Below, in pieces: positions 35,949 to 43,860 of a stretch of DNA of 64,000 bases. Numbering within the stretch: the stretch's first letter is position 1; each line of letters starts with the position of its first letter. The notes under the pieces are model-generated. The model saw only the letters and a list, made by a program, of their open reading frames with translations, was not told the origin of the DNA and made no database searches. This stretch comes from Frigoriglobus tundricola (lineage in GTDB: Bacteria; Planctomycetota; Planctomycetia; Gemmatales; Gemmataceae), in the NCBI RefSeq assembly GCF_013128195.2, contig NZ_CP053452.2:496001-560000 (forward strand), in the 5' to 3' direction. Made by a program: the position numbers and the translations under genes.

Positions 35949-36533
35949 CTACTTTTTCTCTTCGGCGGTCCGTGCCCACCTCGGCCGGTAGCCCAACACG
36001 TACCGGTTGTAGGCCTGTGCGGGGGGGTCCTTGTTCGGGTCGAACTCGAACTCTTGCATTTCGGCCGCCGCCCGCTCGGCCGTCCAGCGGTCGAACTCCA
36101 TGCGGTAGATCGCACACATCGTGCCCGTACGGTCGCGCCCGGCCATGCAGTGAACCAGGACCGGGTGATTGGCCGGGGCGTCAACGACCGCCAGGAACTG
36201 CTCGGCCATGCGATCGAGCCACGCATCGTCGTGTTCGCGCGGGGTCACGCGAACGTACTTCACCCCGCGGGCCCGGGCCACGTCCTCCTCCCAGGTGTCG
36301 GCCTTCTCCGCGTCACGTTCGGGGCGCAGGCTGATCACGGTCCTGATCCCGCGCTCGTCCAGTACGCGCTCGAACCCGGCCGGAGTGAGTTGCCCGCTGC
36401 GGTACAGCACGCCCGCGCGGACCTCACCGAAATTTCTGAGACGGGCGGGCCGCAGGGCCGCGTACACCGCCGGCACCGCGGCCACCGAAACGACCACGAG
36501 GGTCCCGATCATCTGCCTTCGGCTCGGCCGCAT
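35949..36533 (-). CDS. Dual-specificity / tyrosine protein phosphatase
   Basis: 194 residues. An N-terminal hydrophobic segment (MIGTLVVVSVAAVPAVYAAL) suggests membrane anchoring with the catalytic domain outside the cytoplasm. The P-loop HCMAGRDRTGT carries the nucleophilic Cys and Arg; the general acid may be Asp in REHDDAWLD. The substrate (protein, phosphoinositide or other) is not readable. Its upstream region is split by an IS66-type insertion, but GAGG five bases before the ATG is preserved within the target duplication. Confidence 0.85.
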   Translation of the reverse strand: MRPSRRQMIGTLVVVSVAAVPAVYAALRPARLRNFGEVRAGVLYRSGQLTPAGFERVLDERGIRTVISLRPERDAEKADTWEEDVARARGVKYVRVTPREHDDAWLDRMAEQFLAVVDAPANHPVLVHCMAGRDRTGTMCAIYRMEFDRWTAERAAAEMQEFEFDPNKDPPAQAYNRYVLGYRPRWARTAEEKK

Positions 36534-36615: not shown

Positions 36616-38034
36616 TTAGGCCGGGAGCAGTGTCGGTGCCGGCTCGCCATTGCGGTGTGCGCGGATGGCGTCGGTGAGGAATGCCAATACGTTGCGGTTC
36701 TGCCGGCGGCACGAGGCGAGGACCGTCAAGATGCGTTCCACGAATCGGCTCCCGCGTTCGCTGTCGGTCCCGAAGCTGGTTTTGCGCCAGCACACCGCGT
36801 GGCGCACCTCGCGCTCGGCCGCGTTGTTGGTCGGTTCCACACCGACGACCCGCGCGAACGTCCACAACGACGCCTCGACGGCCAACAGGTCGCCGCAGGT
36901 GGCGGCGGTCTTGGCGCAGCCGCACGCAGCCCCGGTCCGCAGGTGCTCGCCGATCTGGTGACGCAATTCGGGGACGTAGTTCGATCGGAATGTGGACCGC
37001 GCGAGGGTTCCGTCCCGGACCCGATACCAATGCTCGAACAAGGCGTCCGAACTCGCCAACAGAGCCGCACCGATCGCCGTCCCGGAACCGCCGCGGTCGA
37101 TCATCGCCTGGAAATCGCGACGCAGGTGCGCCCAGCACAGCTGGCGCGTGTGCTTGGAAAGGTGCGTGTACACCGGATACCGGTCGGTCGTGTGGACGGC
37201 CGTCGAGCCCGCTCGCAGATCATCGAAGGCGCTTCGGCCCCGGGTCTTTCGGATCAGGAAGGCCACCACGAACGTGGTCACGGCCACCCACAACCAGGCC
37301 CGCTTGCGGCCTTGGGTCCAGCCGGTCTCGTCCACGTTGGCCGGTTGTCCGCGGGTGTAGATCAGGGCGTCCTCGGCCACCGGCTTCAACGCCTCCGCGG
37401 TTCGGTGCTGGAGCTTGCACACCATCGCCGGGCTCAGGGGCAGGCCGAACAGGTCGGCGAACAATTGGCTCGTGCCGCGCTTGCCCAGGCGGCACGAGCC
37501 GGTGAGCACCGCGGCCACCGCCTGAGCCCGGGGTCCGTATCCGGTCGCCGCCTCGGCCGGCACCGTCGCCGCGGTCGTCGTGCCGCAGTGCGGGCACCGG
37601 AGCCGGTGGCACCGATACTCGGTGACGTGAGGCGTGATGACGGGGATCTCGTGGACCTGATGAACGGCCGGTTGTGGGTCGTCCCCGGTCAACGGGTGCG
37701 CACAGTCCCGGCACGTGGACGGCTTAAGTGCCCGGATCTCATCGGGCGGCAGCAGGGTGCGTTCGGCTTTGGGGTGCCCCGGTTGCCCGCCTCGTCTCTT
37801 GCCCGAGGGCGGCTTGGGCGGGGCCGGTTTCACGTGCGGGGCGTCGGACGAAGGGGGCTTGGACGAGTTGGTGGAGTTCTGGTTGAGACGGGCCTCGAGT
37901 TCCGCGACGCGGGTGGTGAGCCCGGTGACCTGGGCGGTGAGTTCGGCAATCGTGGCCTCAAGAATGCGGATATACGCCACGACCTGTGGGGGCAGGTCGC
38001 TCGGGAGTTCCGGCGGTTGAGGGACAGGCGTCAT
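36616..38034 (-). CDS. tnpC: IS66-family transposase
   Basis: 472-residue DDE transposase. N-terminal coiled coil (about 20-55), the NSSKPPSSD motif typical of IS66 TnpC, a zinc-finger block (CRDC...CPHCG), and catalytic acidic residues in NVDETGW, TTDRYPVY and NNAAERE. Full length with no stop or frameshift, so likely active. Confidence 0.95.
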   Translation of the reverse strand: MTPVPQPPELPSDLPPQVVAYIRILEATIAELTAQVTGLTTRVAELEARLNQNSTNSSKPPSSDAPHVKPAPPKPPSGKRRGGQPGHPKAERTLLPPDEIRALKPSTCRDCAHPLTGDDPQPAVHQVHEIPVITPHVTEYRCHRLRCPHCGTTTAATVPAEAATGYGPRAQAVAAVLTGSCRLGKRGTSQLFADLFGLPLSPAMVCKLQHRTAEALKPVAEDALIYTRGQPANVDETGWTQGRKRAWLWVAVTTFVVAFLIRKTRGRSAFDDLRAGSTAVHTTDRYPVYTHLSKHTRQLCWAHLRRDFQAMIDRGGSGTAIGAALLASSDALFEHWYRVRDGTLARSTFRSNYVPELRHQIGEHLRTGAACGCAKTAATCGDLLAVEASLWTFARVVGVEPTNNAAEREVRHAVCWRKTSFGTDSERGSRFVERILTVLASCRRQNRNVLAFLTDAIRAHRNGEPAPTLLPA

Positions 38035-38244: not shown

Positions 38245-38276
38245 CGACCCGCCGCACGGCTCCGTGCGGCGGGTCG
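38245..38276 (-). terminator. Rho-independent terminator of the degenerate HtrA gene
   Basis: 15-bp GC-rich arms (38245-38259 and 38262-38276) with a 2-base gap, followed on the minus strand by GTTTCTTTGT. Located 25 bp past the stop at 38301. Confidence 0.75.
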
Positions 38277-38300: not shown

Positions 38301-39371
38301 TCACTTCGATTTCTTCTCCTTGACGTGCGGCGCCGGTGCGACCGGTAGAGCCGGCGCGGACGTGGCCGCCACCGGCGCGAACTTGCCGGCCTTAAACTGC
38401 GGCAGCAGCGGGCGGATGACCTCGCTCGGCAGCACCCAGGTGTCCACCCGCCCGGCGCGGGCGATGTTGATGCCCAGAACGTTCCCGTCGAGATCGACCA
38501 CCGGCCCGCCGCACTCCTTGGCGTTCAGCACCATGTCGGTCTCGATGACCTCGGAGAACCCGGTGCGGCGGTCCGACAGTTCGCTGCCCATCGAGTTCTG
38601 GATATCGCTGCGGTCCTTACGCGGCTTGCCCAGGGTCACCTTGAAGCTCTTCATGTCGTCCTTGCGTTTCGCCTTCACGGTGACCACGTCCCCGCCCCTC
38701 AGGCCCTCGAGTTGCTCGCGGAGCTTAGCCTGACTCAGGATCTTGATCCCGTTCAGTTCGACGATCACGTCGCCCGCAGTGAGCCCGGCCTTATCCGCCG
38801 CGCCGCCCGGTTCCACTCTGTTGAGCTTCGCCCCGGCGGGCTTCCCGCCCTCGTCCTTGTCGTCCACCGGCTCGACGCCCATGAACCCGCGGTTCGGGTT
38901 GATGATATCGGCGTCGCGCCCCGTCAGGCGGCGGGTCATCACGCTCACGATCCCGATGGCCACGGGGTCGCTCGTCGGACCCGATGCGGCCACCCAGGAA
39001 CCCCGCGGCACCTTCTTCGTGTCCGAAAAGGTCACCGGCTTCAGCCCCTTCACGTCCACTTTGAGAAGCGCCAGGTCGGTGGCCTTGTCCGCGGCGACCG
39101 TGATCGCCTCGTACTCGGTGCCGTCGGGCAGGCGGACGTAAACGCCCCCCTTCAGCTCGCTGAGCTTCGTCAGAATGAGGCCGTCCGGGTCCACGACCGT
39201 ACCGAGAACGGTGTCCTTGTCGTTGCACCGGATGCGGACGGTGGACTCGCTCGCCCTTTCCACCACCGGCTTGAAGAGGCTCCGCAGTTCGGTGTCCTTG
39301 GACAGTTGCGCAGAGGCCGGGGCGGCGAGCGCGGCCAGCAGCACGGCAGAGGTGAGAAGACGCGAGATCAT
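38301..39371 (-). CDS. Degenerate HtrA-like protein with PDZ domain inside the protease fold
   Basis: 356 residues with signal peptide (MISRLLTSAVLLAALAAPASA). The first trypsin-like barrel is at 40-148 (DPDGLILTKLSEL, TDLALLKV, GIVSVMTR), a PDZ domain at about 160-248 (FMGVEPVD, GGAADKAGLTAGDVIVELNG), and the second barrel half at about 270-325 (VIETDMVLNAKECGGPVV, LDGNVLGINIA). In ordinary HtrA the PDZ follows the protease. The catalytic His position reads Ser71, Asp99 is kept and the Ser position is Cys287, so classical proteolysis is not expected. A Pro/Ala tail ends in KEKKSK. Encoded just after an intact HtrA on the same strand. Confidence 0.85.
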   Translation of the reverse strand: MISRLLTSAVLLAALAAPASAQLSKDTELRSLFKPVVERASESTVRIRCNDKDTVLGTVVDPDGLILTKLSELKGGVYVRLPDGTEYEAITVAADKATDLALLKVDVKGLKPVTFSDTKKVPRGSWVAASGPTSDPVAIGIVSVMTRRLTGRDADIINPNRGFMGVEPVDDKDEGGKPAGAKLNRVEPGGAADKAGLTAGDVIVELNGIKILSQAKLREQLEGLRGGDVVTVKAKRKDDMKSFKVTLGKPRKDRSDIQNSMGSELSDRRTGFSEVIETDMVLNAKECGGPVVDLDGNVLGINIARAGRVDTWVLPSEVIRPLLPQFKAGKFAPVAATSAPALPVAPAPHVKEKKSK

Positions 39372-39509
39372 CGGTCGAAACTCCAGCGGTGTGTTGGAAG
39401 GGCACTGGTGGGAGCGTAACGCGGCACGGGGTCGGTCCCCCGCGGGAGAGAAAAAAGGATCGTCGGACCGCGCGGGCGCGGGGCGCCGCCCGTGCGGCGG
39501 CGGAGCGGA

Positions 39510-40583
39510 TCAGGTGTCCCGTTTGCCCAGTTTCACGGGCATGATCGAGACGGTGGTGCCGCGGCGGACCGTGAATTTCACTTCCGCCCCGGGCTTCGCC
39601 GCGTTCATGAGTTCGCGGAACTGCTTGACCGACTTCACCACCGTGCTGTTGAACTTCGTGATGGTGTCGCCGGGCTTCAAACCGCCCTTCTCGGCGGGGC
39701 CGCCCTCTTCGACCTCGCGGAGCCACGCGTCGTCGTCCTCGTTATCTGGGAACACGACCCCCAGGTACGCCGCAGCCGCTTTCACAGGCTTGTCGATCCA
39801 GTCGCCGGCGTACATGGCGTCCCAGTCGCTTTTGAACCGGTCGCTCTGGACGTGGATGTTTTGCGAGAGCGGCAGCCCGATGCGGCTGGTGATGCCGACC
39901 ACGTTGCCGTTGAGGTCGAAGAGCGGGCCGCCGGAGTCGCCACCGACGACCGGACAGTCCGTTCGGATCGAGTTACGGGTGGTCTCCTGCACCCGGCCGA
40001 GGCGGGCGACCGGGACCCGACCGGTTTTCGGGCCGTTTGGGTGGCCGAGGGCCACCAGCCACTGACCCTTTTTCAGAGAGCCCGACTTGCCGACCGGCTG
40101 GAACGGCCACTTCCCGTTGTTCGGTCCCTTCTCCGTGATCTGCACCATGCCGCTGTCGTCGCCCGCGTTGATCCCGAGGGTCTTGCCCTCCACGTCCTTG
40201 CCGCTCGCGAGCCGGATCGTGATCGGCTTCCCGCTTGTGAACGGCAGCGCTTCACCCTCCATGCGCCCGGACACCGGCGCCTTGTAATCGCGGATGACGT
40301 GTGCGGCCGTCAAGACCAACCCGTCCTCGCTGACGATCACCCCGCTGCCCGTGCTGTTGCCGAACAGCAGCGCGACCGTGGCCGGCGTACACTTCTCGAC
40401 GACCGATTTCACGCTCTCCTGGAGCGATTTGAGTTCCGCAATATCTTCCGGGGCCGTGTTGCGGCTCGGGTCCCACTTTTTCACCGCTTCCGGGGTCGGG
40501 TCCGCGGCCGGCGCCGCCGCGGAAAGAACGGCGAGGCATAAGGTCAAGCAGGCGGCCAGACGGGCCGACCGTGGCAAAGTCAT
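39510..40583 (-). CDS. HtrA/DegP-type serine protease with PDZ domain
   Basis: 357 residues with a signal peptide (LAACLTLCLAVLSAAAPAA). Trypsin-like domain about 60-240 with His in VLTAAHVI, Asp in GDDSGMVQI and Ser in GGDSGGPLFDLNG; PDZ at about 255-350 (YLGVVFPD, GGPAEKGGLKPGDTITKF). Conventional domain order and intact triad, so likely an active periplasmic quality-control protease. Lies 138 bp upstream of the degenerate paralogue and is probably transcribed with it. Confidence 0.9.
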   Translation of the reverse strand: MTLPRSARLAACLTLCLAVLSAAAPAADPTPEAVKKWDPSRNTAPEDIAELKSLQESVKSVVEKCTPATVALLFGNSTGSGVIVSEDGLVLTAAHVIRDYKAPVSGRMEGEALPFTSGKPITIRLASGKDVEGKTLGINAGDDSGMVQITEKGPNNGKWPFQPVGKSGSLKKGQWLVALGHPNGPKTGRVPVARLGRVQETTRNSIRTDCPVVGGDSGGPLFDLNGNVVGITSRIGLPLSQNIHVQSDRFKSDWDAMYAGDWIDKPVKAAAAYLGVVFPDNEDDDAWLREVEEGGPAEKGGLKPGDTITKFNSTVVKSVKQFRELMNAAKPGAEVKFTVRRGTTVSIMPVKLGKRDT

Positions 40584-41222
40584 GACGCTACTCCGGCGGT
40601 GCGACGCGTGTACTTCCGGTGAAGGTTATCGGAGGATGGCGGGCCGATTCACTACTTCCCCCCGCTTTCTCCACTTTCCCTTATCTCATCGCCCTGTGCA
40701 AGGGGCTGATCCTATTGTTCGCGCCCGAGGTGACCGATTGGAAGAGTAGAACGGAAACGGGGGCTGGGAAAACTGAAAGGCCCACCTCCAGACGAACCGA
40801 GGGGATCAGGGGCAACGGACGCGGATGGAACCCTAACACGCCCGGCAAATACTTCCGGTGGTAGCGTAACGGCTCGGGCACCGGCGAGGAACCGACGAAC
40901 GCGCCCATTCTGAGCGGTTTCGGAGCACGTCTTTCACCCCTCCCGGAATATTCGGGCGGCACCAGCCGTTGGCTGCTTTCACGATTTCTTCACCCTGCCG
41001 TGATGGGGGGCCGACTAAGATTTTTGTAATCTGCACGAGGCACACTCTCCTCCTCACGTGTCTTGATTATTCCTGAATCCGGCGGGCCTATTTCGTGCAC
41101 ATGAGCAGAGGGATTGCTCGTGCCGGAGTATCATCACCTGCAATTGGACCGCACATGACCGGAACGGACCGTCCGACCCGGAGGGTCCGGGGAACGCATC
41201 GGCTCAACGTGGCGGCTTCTTG
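40584..41222. other. Intergenic region between HtrA and ECF genes
   Basis: About 640 bp with no supportable gene. It should contain both divergent promoters. Small inverted segments occur near 41165-41200 (cggaccgtccg and acccggagggt) but nothing diagnostic. Confidence 0.4.
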
Positions 41223-41783
41223 ATGCAGACCACTTCGCTTACTCTGCTCAGGCGCCTGTGTCAGCCCCACGAGCCCGACGCCTGGTCCCGGTTCGTCCGG
41301 CTCTACTCAACTGGCATCTATTCCTGGGTCCGGGGGCTGGGCCTCCGACACGACGACGCCGCCGACATCGTTCAGGACGTTTTCGTCACGCTCGTCCAGA
41401 AGCTGCCCGAGTTCCGCCATCAGGGCGGCCGGAGCTTTCGCGGCTGGCTCTGGGCGATCACGCGCAACAAGTGCCGGGAGTGGGCGCGCCGACGGGAGCT
41501 GGTCCTGGTCCCCGCGGCCGCGCTCGCCGAGGTCGCGGGGAAGGACGACGAACCGTTCTGGGAGGACGAGTTCCGCCGCCACCTGATCGGTCAAATCGCG
41601 TCCGTCATCGAAGCCGACTACCCGCCCGAAGTGTGGCGGGCGTTTTGGGAACACGTCGTCGAGGGCAAACCCGCGCCGCGGGTCGCGGCCGAACTCGGGA
41701 TCAACCTGTGGGCCGTCTACACCGCCAAGGCCCGAATCGTGACCCGCCTGCACGAGGAGTTCCCCGACCTTGTCGCCGACTGA
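41223..41783 (+). CDS. ECF-type RNA polymerase sigma factor
   Basis: 186 residues. Region 2 includes DDAADIVQDVFVTLVQKLPEF and SFRGWLWAITRNKCREW; region 4 includes VAAELGINLWAVYTAKARIVTRL. The region-4 turn is less canonical than usual. Overlaps by 14 bp the start of a Ser/Thr kinase gene, a planctomycete arrangement in which the kinase is thought to control the sigma factor. ATG 41223 chosen over the adjacent TTG. Confidence 0.88.
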   Translation: MQTTSLTLLRRLCQPHEPDAWSRFVRLYSTGIYSWVRGLGLRHDDAADIVQDVFVTLVQKLPEFRHQGGRSFRGWLWAITRNKCREWARRRELVLVPAAALAEVAGKDDEPFWEDEFRRHLIGQIASVIEADYPPEVWRAFWEHVVEGKPAPRVAAELGINLWAVYTAKARIVTRLHEEFPDLVAD

Positions 41784-43860
41784 TCGAACGAAGGCCGATC
41801 CCTGTTTCCCGGCCGATGAGATTCGGGCGCTGCTACTCGGGCGCGGAGCGGGCGCGGCCGCGGACCGCCTCGCCCGCCACATCTCCAGTTGCCCCCGTTG
41901 CGCCGCGGTGGCCGAGGCCATCGGTCTCGACTCCGGGATCGTTTCCGGGCTCCGCCGGGACGCCCTCCCGCCCGCGCCCTCCGACCGCGAACTCGCCGAC
42001 GTGGTCGCCCGCGTCGGCCGGATCGATCGATCGTCCCGGGCCGGGGGCGCGAGGGGCGCCCCGGCGGCCGATGTGCCGGCTCGGCTCGGCCCCTACCGCC
42101 TCTACGAGCGCCTCGGGACCGGCGGTATGGGCGTCGTGTACCGCGCCGAGGACACCGCGCTTCATCGGTTCGTGGCGGTGAAGGTCGTCAAAGGGAGCGC
42201 GGACGCGGGCACGCGGGCGCGGTTCCTGAGCGAGGCGCGGGCGCTCGCGGCGGTCCGGCACGACAACGTCGTGACCGTCCATTACGTTGGCGAGGAGCCG
42301 ACCGCCGCGGGGGCGATCCCGTACCTGGCGATGGAACTGCTGGAGGGGCAGACGCTGCGCGACTGGATGGCGACCGCCCCGCTCCCTCCCATCGATTGGG
42401 TGGTGCACGTGGGCCGGCAGATCGCATCCGGCCTCGCCTTCGCACACAGCGCCGGGCTGGTCCACCGCGACGTGAAGCCGGCCAACCTGTGGCTGGAAGC
42501 CCCGCAGGGGTGGGCGACCCGACCGCCGGAGACCCGCCCCACGCTCGCCGCCGTTGGGCGCGTGAAGCTCCTCGACTTCGGACTGGCCCACCCGCCCGGC
42601 GTCGCGGCGGGGGCCGGCGCCGCCGGGACGCTCGCGTACATGTCCCCGAACAGGCGCGCGACGAGGCCGTTGACGCGCGGACGGACCTGTTCGGGCTCGG
42701 CTGTGTGCTCTACGAGTTGTGTACGGGCCGGCTGTCATTTCCCCACCGGGGCCGGGGCTGGGCCGGGGACCGCGACGCCCCGCCGGGCGCCCGTTCGCTC
42801 ACTGAACCCCGCCGTCCCGGAGCGGCTCGCCGACCTGATCGAACGGCTGCTGGCCGCGGACCGCGCCGACCGGCCGGGGTCGGCTCGTGCGGTCGAACTC
42901 GAACTCGCCGACCTCGACCCGCACTCCGCCGGCCCGCCCACGGAGTCGGGGCAGTCGGACGCAACGGTCATCATCCGCCCGGGCCGGCGCCCCAGGCGGT
43001 CTCGGCGTCTGGTCATGCTCGTCGCCTTGGTGGTGGCTGGCGCGGTTGTGGCCTTCGCCCGGACCACCCGCACCGACACGACCCACAACCCGCCAGCCGA
43101 CGGGTTCGTGCCGCAGCCGACGGCCGTCACCGAGACGACCGAGCCGACTATCACCGACCAACAAAAGACACTCGCCTCTTCGGACGTGATTGACGAAGAG
43201 TGGTGCCGCGCGCTTTCGACCCTTCCGCCCCAGCAACAGGTCAACGTGGTCCTTCGTGCGCTGGGCAAATCGAACCCCCAGTTCGAATGGATCAAAGGGA
43301 GCGGGTGGGCCGAGCCGGACCGGGTGATTCGCCTGACCGTGAATGCCGACACGGTGTCCGACCTCCGCCCGGTCCGGGCACTGACGGCCCTCACCGTTCT
43401 GCGGTGCAGGGGCTCGGCCCCGGGGCGCGGAACCCTCACGGACCTGTCACCGTTGTCCGAGCTGAAATTGCAGGAACTTCATTGCCGCAATAACCCCAAC
43501 CTCCGGGACCTGTCCCCGATTCAACTCGACCACCTGGGCTTTGTGGACGCGTCGTTCACGGGCCTGGAGACCCTGGTCGGACTGAGTGAGGCTCCTCTCG
43601 TGACACTCAAGATCTCGGGAACGCCGATCCGTGACCTCGGTCCGGTCCGGAAGATGTCGAAACTGAAAGTTCTCACCTGTATCGATTGCCCGATTACCGA
43701 CTTCGAGCCGCTCACCGCGATCCGTCTCCGAGAACTGAACGCGAACGTGCAGGTGGAACGTGACGCGGCCGTGTTGAAACGCATTCACACGCTGGAAAAG
43801 ATCAACGATGTACCCGTTGCGGAGTTCTGGAAAAGCCTACCGCCGACGACTCCGAACTGA
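41770..43860 (+). CDS. Membrane Ser/Thr protein kinase with leucine-rich repeats, locally frame-disrupted
   Basis: About 696 residues. N-terminal zinc-finger-like H-x3-C-x2-C (ARHISSCPRCAAV), kinase domain about 97-370 (LGTGGMGVVYRA, VAVKVVK, LVHRDVKPANL, LLDFGLAHPPG), one TM helix near 415-435, then an extracytoplasmic leucine-rich-repeat-like domain (LTDLSPLSELKLQELHC, RDLGPVRKMSKLKVL). After AYMSP the open frame leaves the expected EQARDEAVDARTDLFGLG, which is present one frame over, and returns at SFPTGAG: a missing G near 42646 and an extra T near 42738 would explain both. The TTG start overlaps the ECF gene, implying coupling. Confidence 0.82.
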   Translation: MSPTDRTKADPCFPADEIRALLLGRGAGAAADRLARHISSCPRCAAVAEAIGLDSGIVSGLRRDALPPAPSDRELADVVARVGRIDRSSRAGGARGAPAADVPARLGPYRLYERLGTGGMGVVYRAEDTALHRFVAVKVVKGSADAGTRARFLSEARALAAVRHDNVVTVHYVGEEPTAAGAIPYLAMELLEGQTLRDWMATAPLPPIDWVVHVGRQIASGLAFAHSAGLVHRDVKPANLWLEAPQGWATRPPETRPTLAAVGRVKLLDFGLAHPPGVAAGAGAAGTLAYMSPNRRATRPLTRGRTCSGSAVCSTSCVRAGCHFPTGAGAGPGTATPRRAPVRSLNPAVPERLADLIERLLAADRADRPGSARAVELELADLDPHSAGPPTESGQSDATVIIRPGRRPRRSRRLVMLVALVVAGAVVAFARTTRTDTTHNPPADGFVPQPTAVTETTEPTITDQQKTLASSDVIDEEWCRALSTLPPQQQVNVVLRALGKSNPQFEWIKGSGWAEPDRVIRLTVNADTVSDLRPVRALTALTVLRCRGSAPGRGTLTDLSPLSELKLQELHCRNNPNLRDLSPIQLDHLGFVDASFTGLETLVGLSEAPLVTLKISGTPIRDLGPVRKMSKLKVLTCIDCPITDFEPLTAIRLRELNANVQVERDAAVLKRIHTLEKINDVPVAEFWKSLPPTTPN

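Follow-up and report, generated by a model that had tools for sequence, protein, structure and literature searches.

Within the 64,000-nucleotide stretch of the Frigoriglobus tundricola genome analysed here (the window; contig NZ_CP053452.2, positions 496,001 to 560,000) lies a gene for a 356-residue protein, P0001, in which a PDZ domain sits inside an HtrA-type trypsin fold whose catalytic residues have been replaced. Sequence comparisons strongly support the view that P0001 is a catalytically dead HtrA-like pseudoprotease, probably a secreted one. Its tie to the neighbouring active HtrA (P0002) is strongly supported by gene linkage, recurrent fusion, co-occurrence when the genes are unlinked, and purifying selection. 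We regard the dead HtrA with its nested PDZ and active partner as a variant of the pseudoprotease-partner arrangement, with a mechanism of HtrA allostery that we infer and that can be tested. On balance, we lean towards P0001 being a non-catalytic subunit for sensing, obligately paired with the HtrA encoded directly upstream and functioning solely with it.

This matters because HtrA allostery, which runs from the PDZ through loop L3 to the active site of the neighbouring subunit, has been hard to dissect, each subunit being sender and receiver at once. A natural pair in which one member is no longer catalytic but retains the sending residue would make it possible to test the two roles separately. 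The case of P0001 further suggests that protease systems can include a pseudoprotease as a constant component over a large part of a bacterial phylum, and it offers a testable function for proteins that general family models place merely as HtrA-like or PDZ proteins.

A PDZ domain nested in a trypsin-like fold

Pfam recognizes the N-terminal half of the trypsin-like domain of P0001 (Trypsin_2, residues 57-134) and a PDZ domain behind it (PDZ_2, residues 162-247, E 1.8e-14), and in phmmer the protease domains of HtrA1 and DegQ match the protein as two pieces that flank the PDZ. The PDZ thus lies between the two halves, whereas in HtrA/Deg proteases it is C-terminal to the protease domain. Its entry point is loop L3, since the alignment with E. 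coli DegP, DegQ and DegS breaks a few residues after Arg147; L3 of DegS comprises residues 176-189 (PMC11642142; this paper and those cited below are drawn on in part). An AlphaFold2 model, of middling confidence and computed from a six-row alignment in which two rows were canonical HtrA protease pieces, has a mean predicted local distance difference test score (pLDDT) of 63.7 and a predicted template modelling score (pTM) of 0.50, with pLDDT below 50 for residues 278-287, the loop of the catalytic serine. Compared with the PDB by VIA-align, it matched the chymotrypsin-like double barrel of HtrAs across the PDZ over 168-192 residues, at Z 21.0-22.8 among the 50 matches listed. These matches include AlgW (7co2; model residues 31..333, Z 22.8, 2.5 Å over 186 residues), PDZ-deleted DegS (2r3u; Z 21.7, 3.1 Å over 183 residues) and two further PDZ-free structures, 3sti and 2qf3. 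Because the model aligns to HtrA protease domains across the PDZ, both halves most likely build a single barrel around it. The best Foldseek matches were likewise HtrAs, with low template modelling (TM) scores that we attribute to the domain order.

In the alignment with the E. coli proteins, Ser71 occupies the position of DegS His96, Asp99 that of Asp126, Cys287 that of Ser201 and Lys285 that of Gly199. Three of the four catalytic features examined (His, Ser and the oxyanion Gly) are therefore lost, and P0001 lacks the His-Asp-Ser triad of an active HtrA/Deg serine protease. A preliminary description of the gene, made from the sequence, had proposed both the PDZ between two trypsin-like halves and the degenerate triad with Ser71 and Cys287; Pfam, the two-piece phmmer matches, the alignment and the model bear out the former and the alignment the latter. 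The C-terminal CGGP block, whose place in a trypsin fold had been left to be checked, falls within that fold in the model.

The losses were followed through two sets of relatives, the first consisting of 70 distinct orthologues from fetched Gemmataceae loci and the second of 61 modules, 54 from other families and 7 further ones from Gemmataceae. In the first set the His position holds Ser in 64, Asn in 4, Asp in 1 and His in 1; all 69 orthologues that reach the Ser position have Cys there, and none of 69 has Gly at the oxyanion position. The second set has Cys (42), Met (6), Gln (5), Ile (4), Val (3) or Thr (1) at the Ser position, never Ser, and Gly at the oxyanion position in 1 of 61, or 1 of 130 for both sets together. 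Other residues are strongly conserved: all 70 first-set orthologues have Lys69, Asp99 and Arg147, and the second set keeps Lys69 and Ser71 in 60 of 61 each and Asp99 in 61/61, giving 130/131, 124/131 and 131/131 overall. At the former His site, Lys69 and Ser71 probably act as a substitute that pairs with the buried Asp99. The ratio of non-synonymous to synonymous substitution (dN/dS) points to purifying selection of similar strength on the dead gene and its neighbour, with medians of about 0.24 and 0.20 for the dead gene and the active partner, respectively (pairs from 11 loci, of which 54 and 46 out of 55 could be computed); these values are rough, synonymous sites being near saturation.

Some individual copies deserve mention. 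The lone copy of the 131 with His at the catalytic His position (locus L080, 5728-7008, minus strand; LTKAHDL) still has Cys at the Ser position. At locus L096 (5975-7198, minus strand), from a near-complete genome (G012), the dead gene is split across two frames, through either decay or sequencing error. The copy of Gemmata sp. IIL30 (L045, 4986-6233, plus strand) has a 61-column alignment insert right after the CGGPVVDL block, which opens with a repeat of the following stretch and is possibly an assembly duplication.

Searches with the protein found relatives of P0001 in 78 of 95 genomes of the host's family (E <=1e-20), and a profile detected them in 81 of the 102 genomes searched from the order (E 1e-40) and in 71 of 392 genomes of a phylum-wide sample (E 1e-30), among them 31 of 39 of the same class. 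These counts are lower bounds, as about 20 candidates per genome were scored for the family and order and 5 for the phylum-wide sample. Against the same profile canonical DegQ gives separate pieces, the best at E 1.4e-24, and the piece that matches the PDZ comes behind the C-terminal half. None of 96 genomes of the phylum of locus L046 matched at E 1e-25, in a search run without a positive control. Viral contigs yielded no relative; among plasmids, 10 records matched, and in none did a single place cover 80% of the query. Neither P0001 nor P0002 attained the cutoff of any NCBIfam model.

Of the frames that hold both halves above the score limits used, 127 of 128 have the PDZ between the halves, the exception being an ordinary HtrA, and the ligand-loop residue Gly165 is kept in 69 of 70 orthologues. 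With 70 distinct orthologues sharing it, the inserted-PDZ layout is, on sequence grounds, conserved and not a chance arrangement; the preliminary description had suggested looking for this order in planctomycetes, where it recurs in Gemmataceae and in other families. Several modules (L176, L180-L183, L190 and L192) have two to four inserted PDZ domains, with four in one module. One planctomycete family, f29 (L181, L182, L183 and L192), has fusions of 965-1007 residues with two PDZ domains before the dead module and two inside it, and in L183 a match resembling tetratricopeptide repeats lies ahead of the PDZ domains.

A dedicated active HtrA partner

The triad of P0002 (His95, Asp143 and Ser217) is intact, and it is invariant in 18 aligned partners. 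For 64 of the 70 first-set genes, an active HtrA is encoded directly upstream and in the same orientation; 61 of these 64 partners show, by pattern, a His motif together with GDSGG or GDSGA, and the other three are partial or lack the His pattern. At three loci (L031, L039 and L104) the partner is in a frame overlapped by the stop-to-stop frame of the dead gene, and at L051, on a short draft contig, the two are read as one open frame, so that 68 of the 70 dead proteins have an adjoining or fused partner. The second set has the two fused in one open frame in 31 of 61 cases, the partner directly upstream in 24, and neither in 6. All the fused frames except L141 (30 of 31) have GDSGG in the first half. 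As two of them (L142 and L164) come from single-contig genomes, assembly error is not the general cause of fusion. Apparent fusions at L031, L037 and L039 (frames of 764-786 residues) were rejected: their N-terminal part looks like out-of-frame sequence, and the partner is a separate overlapping frame. A diverged, fused Gemmataceae paralogue (L187, L188 and L189; frames of 635-945 residues) occurs in addition to the separate pair in genomes G071, G010 and G092.

For five of the six unlinked second-set cases the dedicated partner was found elsewhere in the genome (E 1e-101 to 1e-117). Conversely, the partner was sought in 21 genomes with no detected dead protein, namely 13 of the 21 non-matching genomes of the order and all 8 of the same class; the other 8 of the order, and genomes of other classes, lay outside this search. 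Generic HtrAs alone were found in 20 of the 21 (best E 2e-35 to 2e-44). In the remaining genome (G005) the partner is present (E 6.5e-138), 281 bases short of a contig end that cuts the dead gene, whose first part is there as a 77-residue fragment. By these comparisons the association of the dead protein with one clade of active HtrA in Planctomycetota is close and apparently obligate.

In a tree of 68 dead and 69 partner rows with three outgroup rows (short halves led to the omission of 8 of the 76 dead modules), the dead modules form one clade and the dedicated partners another, with support of 99 and 99 in the Shimodaira-Hasegawa-like approximate likelihood ratio test (SH-aLRT). A smaller tree (15 + 15 rows, seven outgroup rows) gives these clades supports of 100/100 and 100/99, with a bootstrap that had not settled. 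In the larger tree fused forms branch among separate ones, so that at least two changes between them are forced. The preliminary description called the neighbour a normal HtrA, which is roughly right: its triad is intact, but it belongs to a distinct, dedicated clade. The same description considered P0001 a possible regulator or scaffold of the active protease; that it is dead and tied to its neighbour agrees with what we find, and a regulating or scaffolding role would follow by inference.

Division of sensing and cutting: a proposal and its alternatives

According to PMC11642142, signalling in DegS runs from the PDZ by way of L3 to the LD loop of the neighbouring subunit, a contact in which Arg178 of L3 takes part. 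The equivalent residue of the dead proteins, Arg147, is kept in 70 of 70 cases in the first set and in 45 of 50 ungapped rows of the second, and the position of DegS Gln191 holds Gln in 65 of 69 first-set orthologues. The LD loop of P0001 is three residues shorter than that of DegP, DegQ and DegS. The active partners have in their turn a short L3, of 9 residues in 72 of the 92 measured (124 distinct partners were tried), against 12 in DegP, DegQ and DegS. It looks as though sender and receiver have been split between two chains, maybe only partially.

HtrA protease domains form trimers. We propose that P0001 and P0002 would assemble as mixed oligomers, in which the dead subunit would present its PDZ-bearing L3 loop to the LD loop of an adjacent active subunit. 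A C-terminal peptide bound by the nested PDZ would move L3, and this movement would set the active site of the neighbour, most likely switching it on. Two chains would then share out sensing and cutting, which in DegS and DegP fall to a single chain. We put forward the fuller proposal tentatively, as a possibility somewhat short of probable: in a mixed oligomer the dead subunit, through the PDZ in its L3, would act as an allosteric switch on the active subunit, gated by ligand, and Planctomycetota would have retained this two-chain HtrA widely while fusing or splitting it on more than one occasion.

Several observations weigh against a sensing subunit that is obligately paired. The sending residue is not confined to the dead chain, as 75 of the 92 partners measured also have Arg at the Arg178 position, and in P0001 itself the equivalent of Gln191 is Glu277. 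Two of the 70 first-set proteins (L064 and L067) are extra, unlinked paralogue copies with no partner beside them, and genome G477, which holds the sixth unlinked case of the second set (L172, a frame opening at a contig end), yielded no partner at E 1e-40. Several fused forms, among them L143 and the 584-residue L142, where the nested PDZ is the sole one detected, have an active half that has lost its own PDZ. A tethered model, P0002-linker-P0001, had a pTM of 0.36 and no usable interface. The sister relation of the dead and active clades is weak (85/52 in the smaller tree), and an origin by tandem duplication, with the two clades as sisters, is only weakly supported.

The loss of the PDZ from such active halves agrees with a sensing subunit and equally with a simpler scaffold, which is the main rival explanation: the dead module would only mediate oligomerization of the active HtrA, with the PDZ as a tether and without allosteric control. 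The fusion of active and dead modules in one chain resembles Deg7, and the inactive domain of AtDeg7 is involved in trimerization (PMC3473262); another dead HtrA relative, PflC, is a lattice scaffold (PMC12222027). We nevertheless consider this rather unlikely, as the ligand loop of the PDZ is intact and the near-constant position of the domain, within the signalling loop L3 and after the kept Arg, would be needless in a plain scaffold. An intact ligand loop would equally suit a substrate adaptor or brake, whose PDZ would capture C-termini and hand them to the active HtrA or withhold them from it, leaving the active site untouched; the modules with several inserted PDZ domains also point this way. 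A free PDZ would, however, suffice for such a task, which leaves unexplained why the complete trypsin fold is conserved, with Lys69, Asp99 and Arg147 almost unchanged, and this explanation seems improbable.

The conserved Lys69, Ser71 and Asp99, together with the Cys found in 69/69 Gemmataceae copies, could be taken as signs of a repurposed enzyme, in which Cys287, or Ser71 with Lys69, would be a new nucleophile served by another base. In 19 of the 61 second-set modules another residue (Met, Gln, Ile, Val or Thr) replaces Cys287, and because the position varies in this way we rate a catalytic role for Cys287 as low. The oxyanion Gly and the catalytic His are each present in a single copy (of 130 and 131, respectively), and Lys69 would more simply be a partner for the buried Asp99. 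A new enzyme is thus very improbable, and a sensing subunit is the reading that we retain.

The locus and its relation to known systems

The features of the pair are collected in Table 1; the start, stop and reading frame of P0001 were verified. The hairpin that follows the inactive gene and the lack of one in the gap fit a two-gene operon that ends there.

Table 1. Features of the P0002-P0001 gene pair and its surroundings (window coordinates).
Feature	Position	Strand	Basis
P0001, inactive HtrA-like protein with nested PDZ, 356 residues	38301..39371	-	Pfam, phmmer
P0001 signal peptide, N-terminal, residues 1-22	39306..39371	-	Sequence judged by eye, without a predictor
P0001 trypsin-like domain, N-terminal half, residues 32-150	38922..39278	-	Pfam, phmmer, structural match, alignment
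P0001 PDZ domain inside loop L3, residues 160-247, ligand loop GFMGV intact	38631..38894	-	
P0001 trypsin-like domain, C-terminal half, residues 254-330, with CGGP and family-specific block 254-272	38382..38612	-	
P0001 Ser71, catalytic His position (DegS His96)	39159..39161	-	Alignment
P0001 Asp99, sole triad residue retained	39075..39077	-	Alignment
P0001 Arg147, equivalent to DegS Arg178 / DegP Arg187 of loop L3, PDZ after it	38931..38933	-	Alignment
P0001 Lys285, oxyanion-hole Gly position (DegS Gly199)	38517..38519	-	Alignment
P0001 Cys287, catalytic Ser position (DegS Ser201)	38511..38513	-	Alignment
P0002, dedicated active HtrA partner, 357 residues, trypsin domain then C-terminal PDZ, His95-Asp143-Ser217	39510..40583	-	
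P0002-P0001 intergenic gap, 138 bases; no terminator-like site found on the coding strand	39372..39509	-	
Strong terminator-like hairpin, 14 pairs (12 G-C), directly 3' of the inactive gene	38245..38276	-	

Directly downstream of the pair is an IS66-family transposase gene (36616-38034, minus strand; PF03050, E 1.7e-29), with a tyrosine-phosphatase-like gene (35949-36533) next to it. Upstream and divergent (41220-43860, plus strand) are genes for a sigma-70 region 2 protein, resembling extracytoplasmic function sigma factors, and a Ser/Thr kinase with a leucine-rich-repeat match; neither has a counterpart beside the pair in any of the other 60 loci compared. None of the window neighbours tested has a counterpart in the other loci, and among frames of at least 120 residues outside the pair, no third gene travelling with it was found at the 61 loci, none having a counterpart in more than 10 others.

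A search of open-licence PubMed Central (PMC) papers found no description of a PDZ nested in a trypsin fold or of such a dead/active pair, in agreement with the preliminary description, which knew of no such arrangement. A census of microbial PDZ proteins records many in planctomycetes, with no such insertion noted in the part drawn on (PMC6411480). SpoIVB was set aside as a precedent for a nested PDZ, its PDZ and protease being treated, in the text available, as two separate parts. With DegS and DegP, P0001 has in common the trypsin fold, the PDZ and the L3 arginine; it differs in having no triad and no oxyanion Gly, in the PDZ being in L3 instead of C-terminal, and in its shortened LD loop. 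PflC of the Campylobacter flagellar motor is likewise a periplasmic HtrA descendant without a triad, but it has a linear protease-PDZ-PDZ order and is a motor scaffold, and the sections drawn on describe no tie to an active HtrA gene (PMC12222027). Plant Deg7, one chain with active and inactive HtrA protease domains and several PDZ domains, resembles the planctomycete fusions. Its order is PD-PDZ-PDZ-PDia-PDZ-PDZ, with PDZ domains after the protease domains (PMC3473262), whereas P0001 and the modules compared have the PDZ inside the inactive domain, and the planctomycete modules are often encoded separately.

MamO of magnetotactic bacteria is likewise a dead HtrA-like protein with a degenerate triad and a residue other than Gly at position 193, and it is encoded with an active HtrA, MamE, which needs MamO for proteolysis; a nested PDZ is not described for MamO in the portions drawn on (PMC4794232). 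P0001 falls far short of the NCBIfam MamO family (36.1 bits against a cutoff of 800) and so is not a member of it. P0001 and, but for one Gly among 130 copies, both sets nevertheless have the degenerate triad and the non-Gly residue at position 193, and the dead protein is encoded with or fused to an active HtrA in 68 of 70 and 55 of 61 cases. MamO/MamE is the system nearest in kind to the planctomycete pair.
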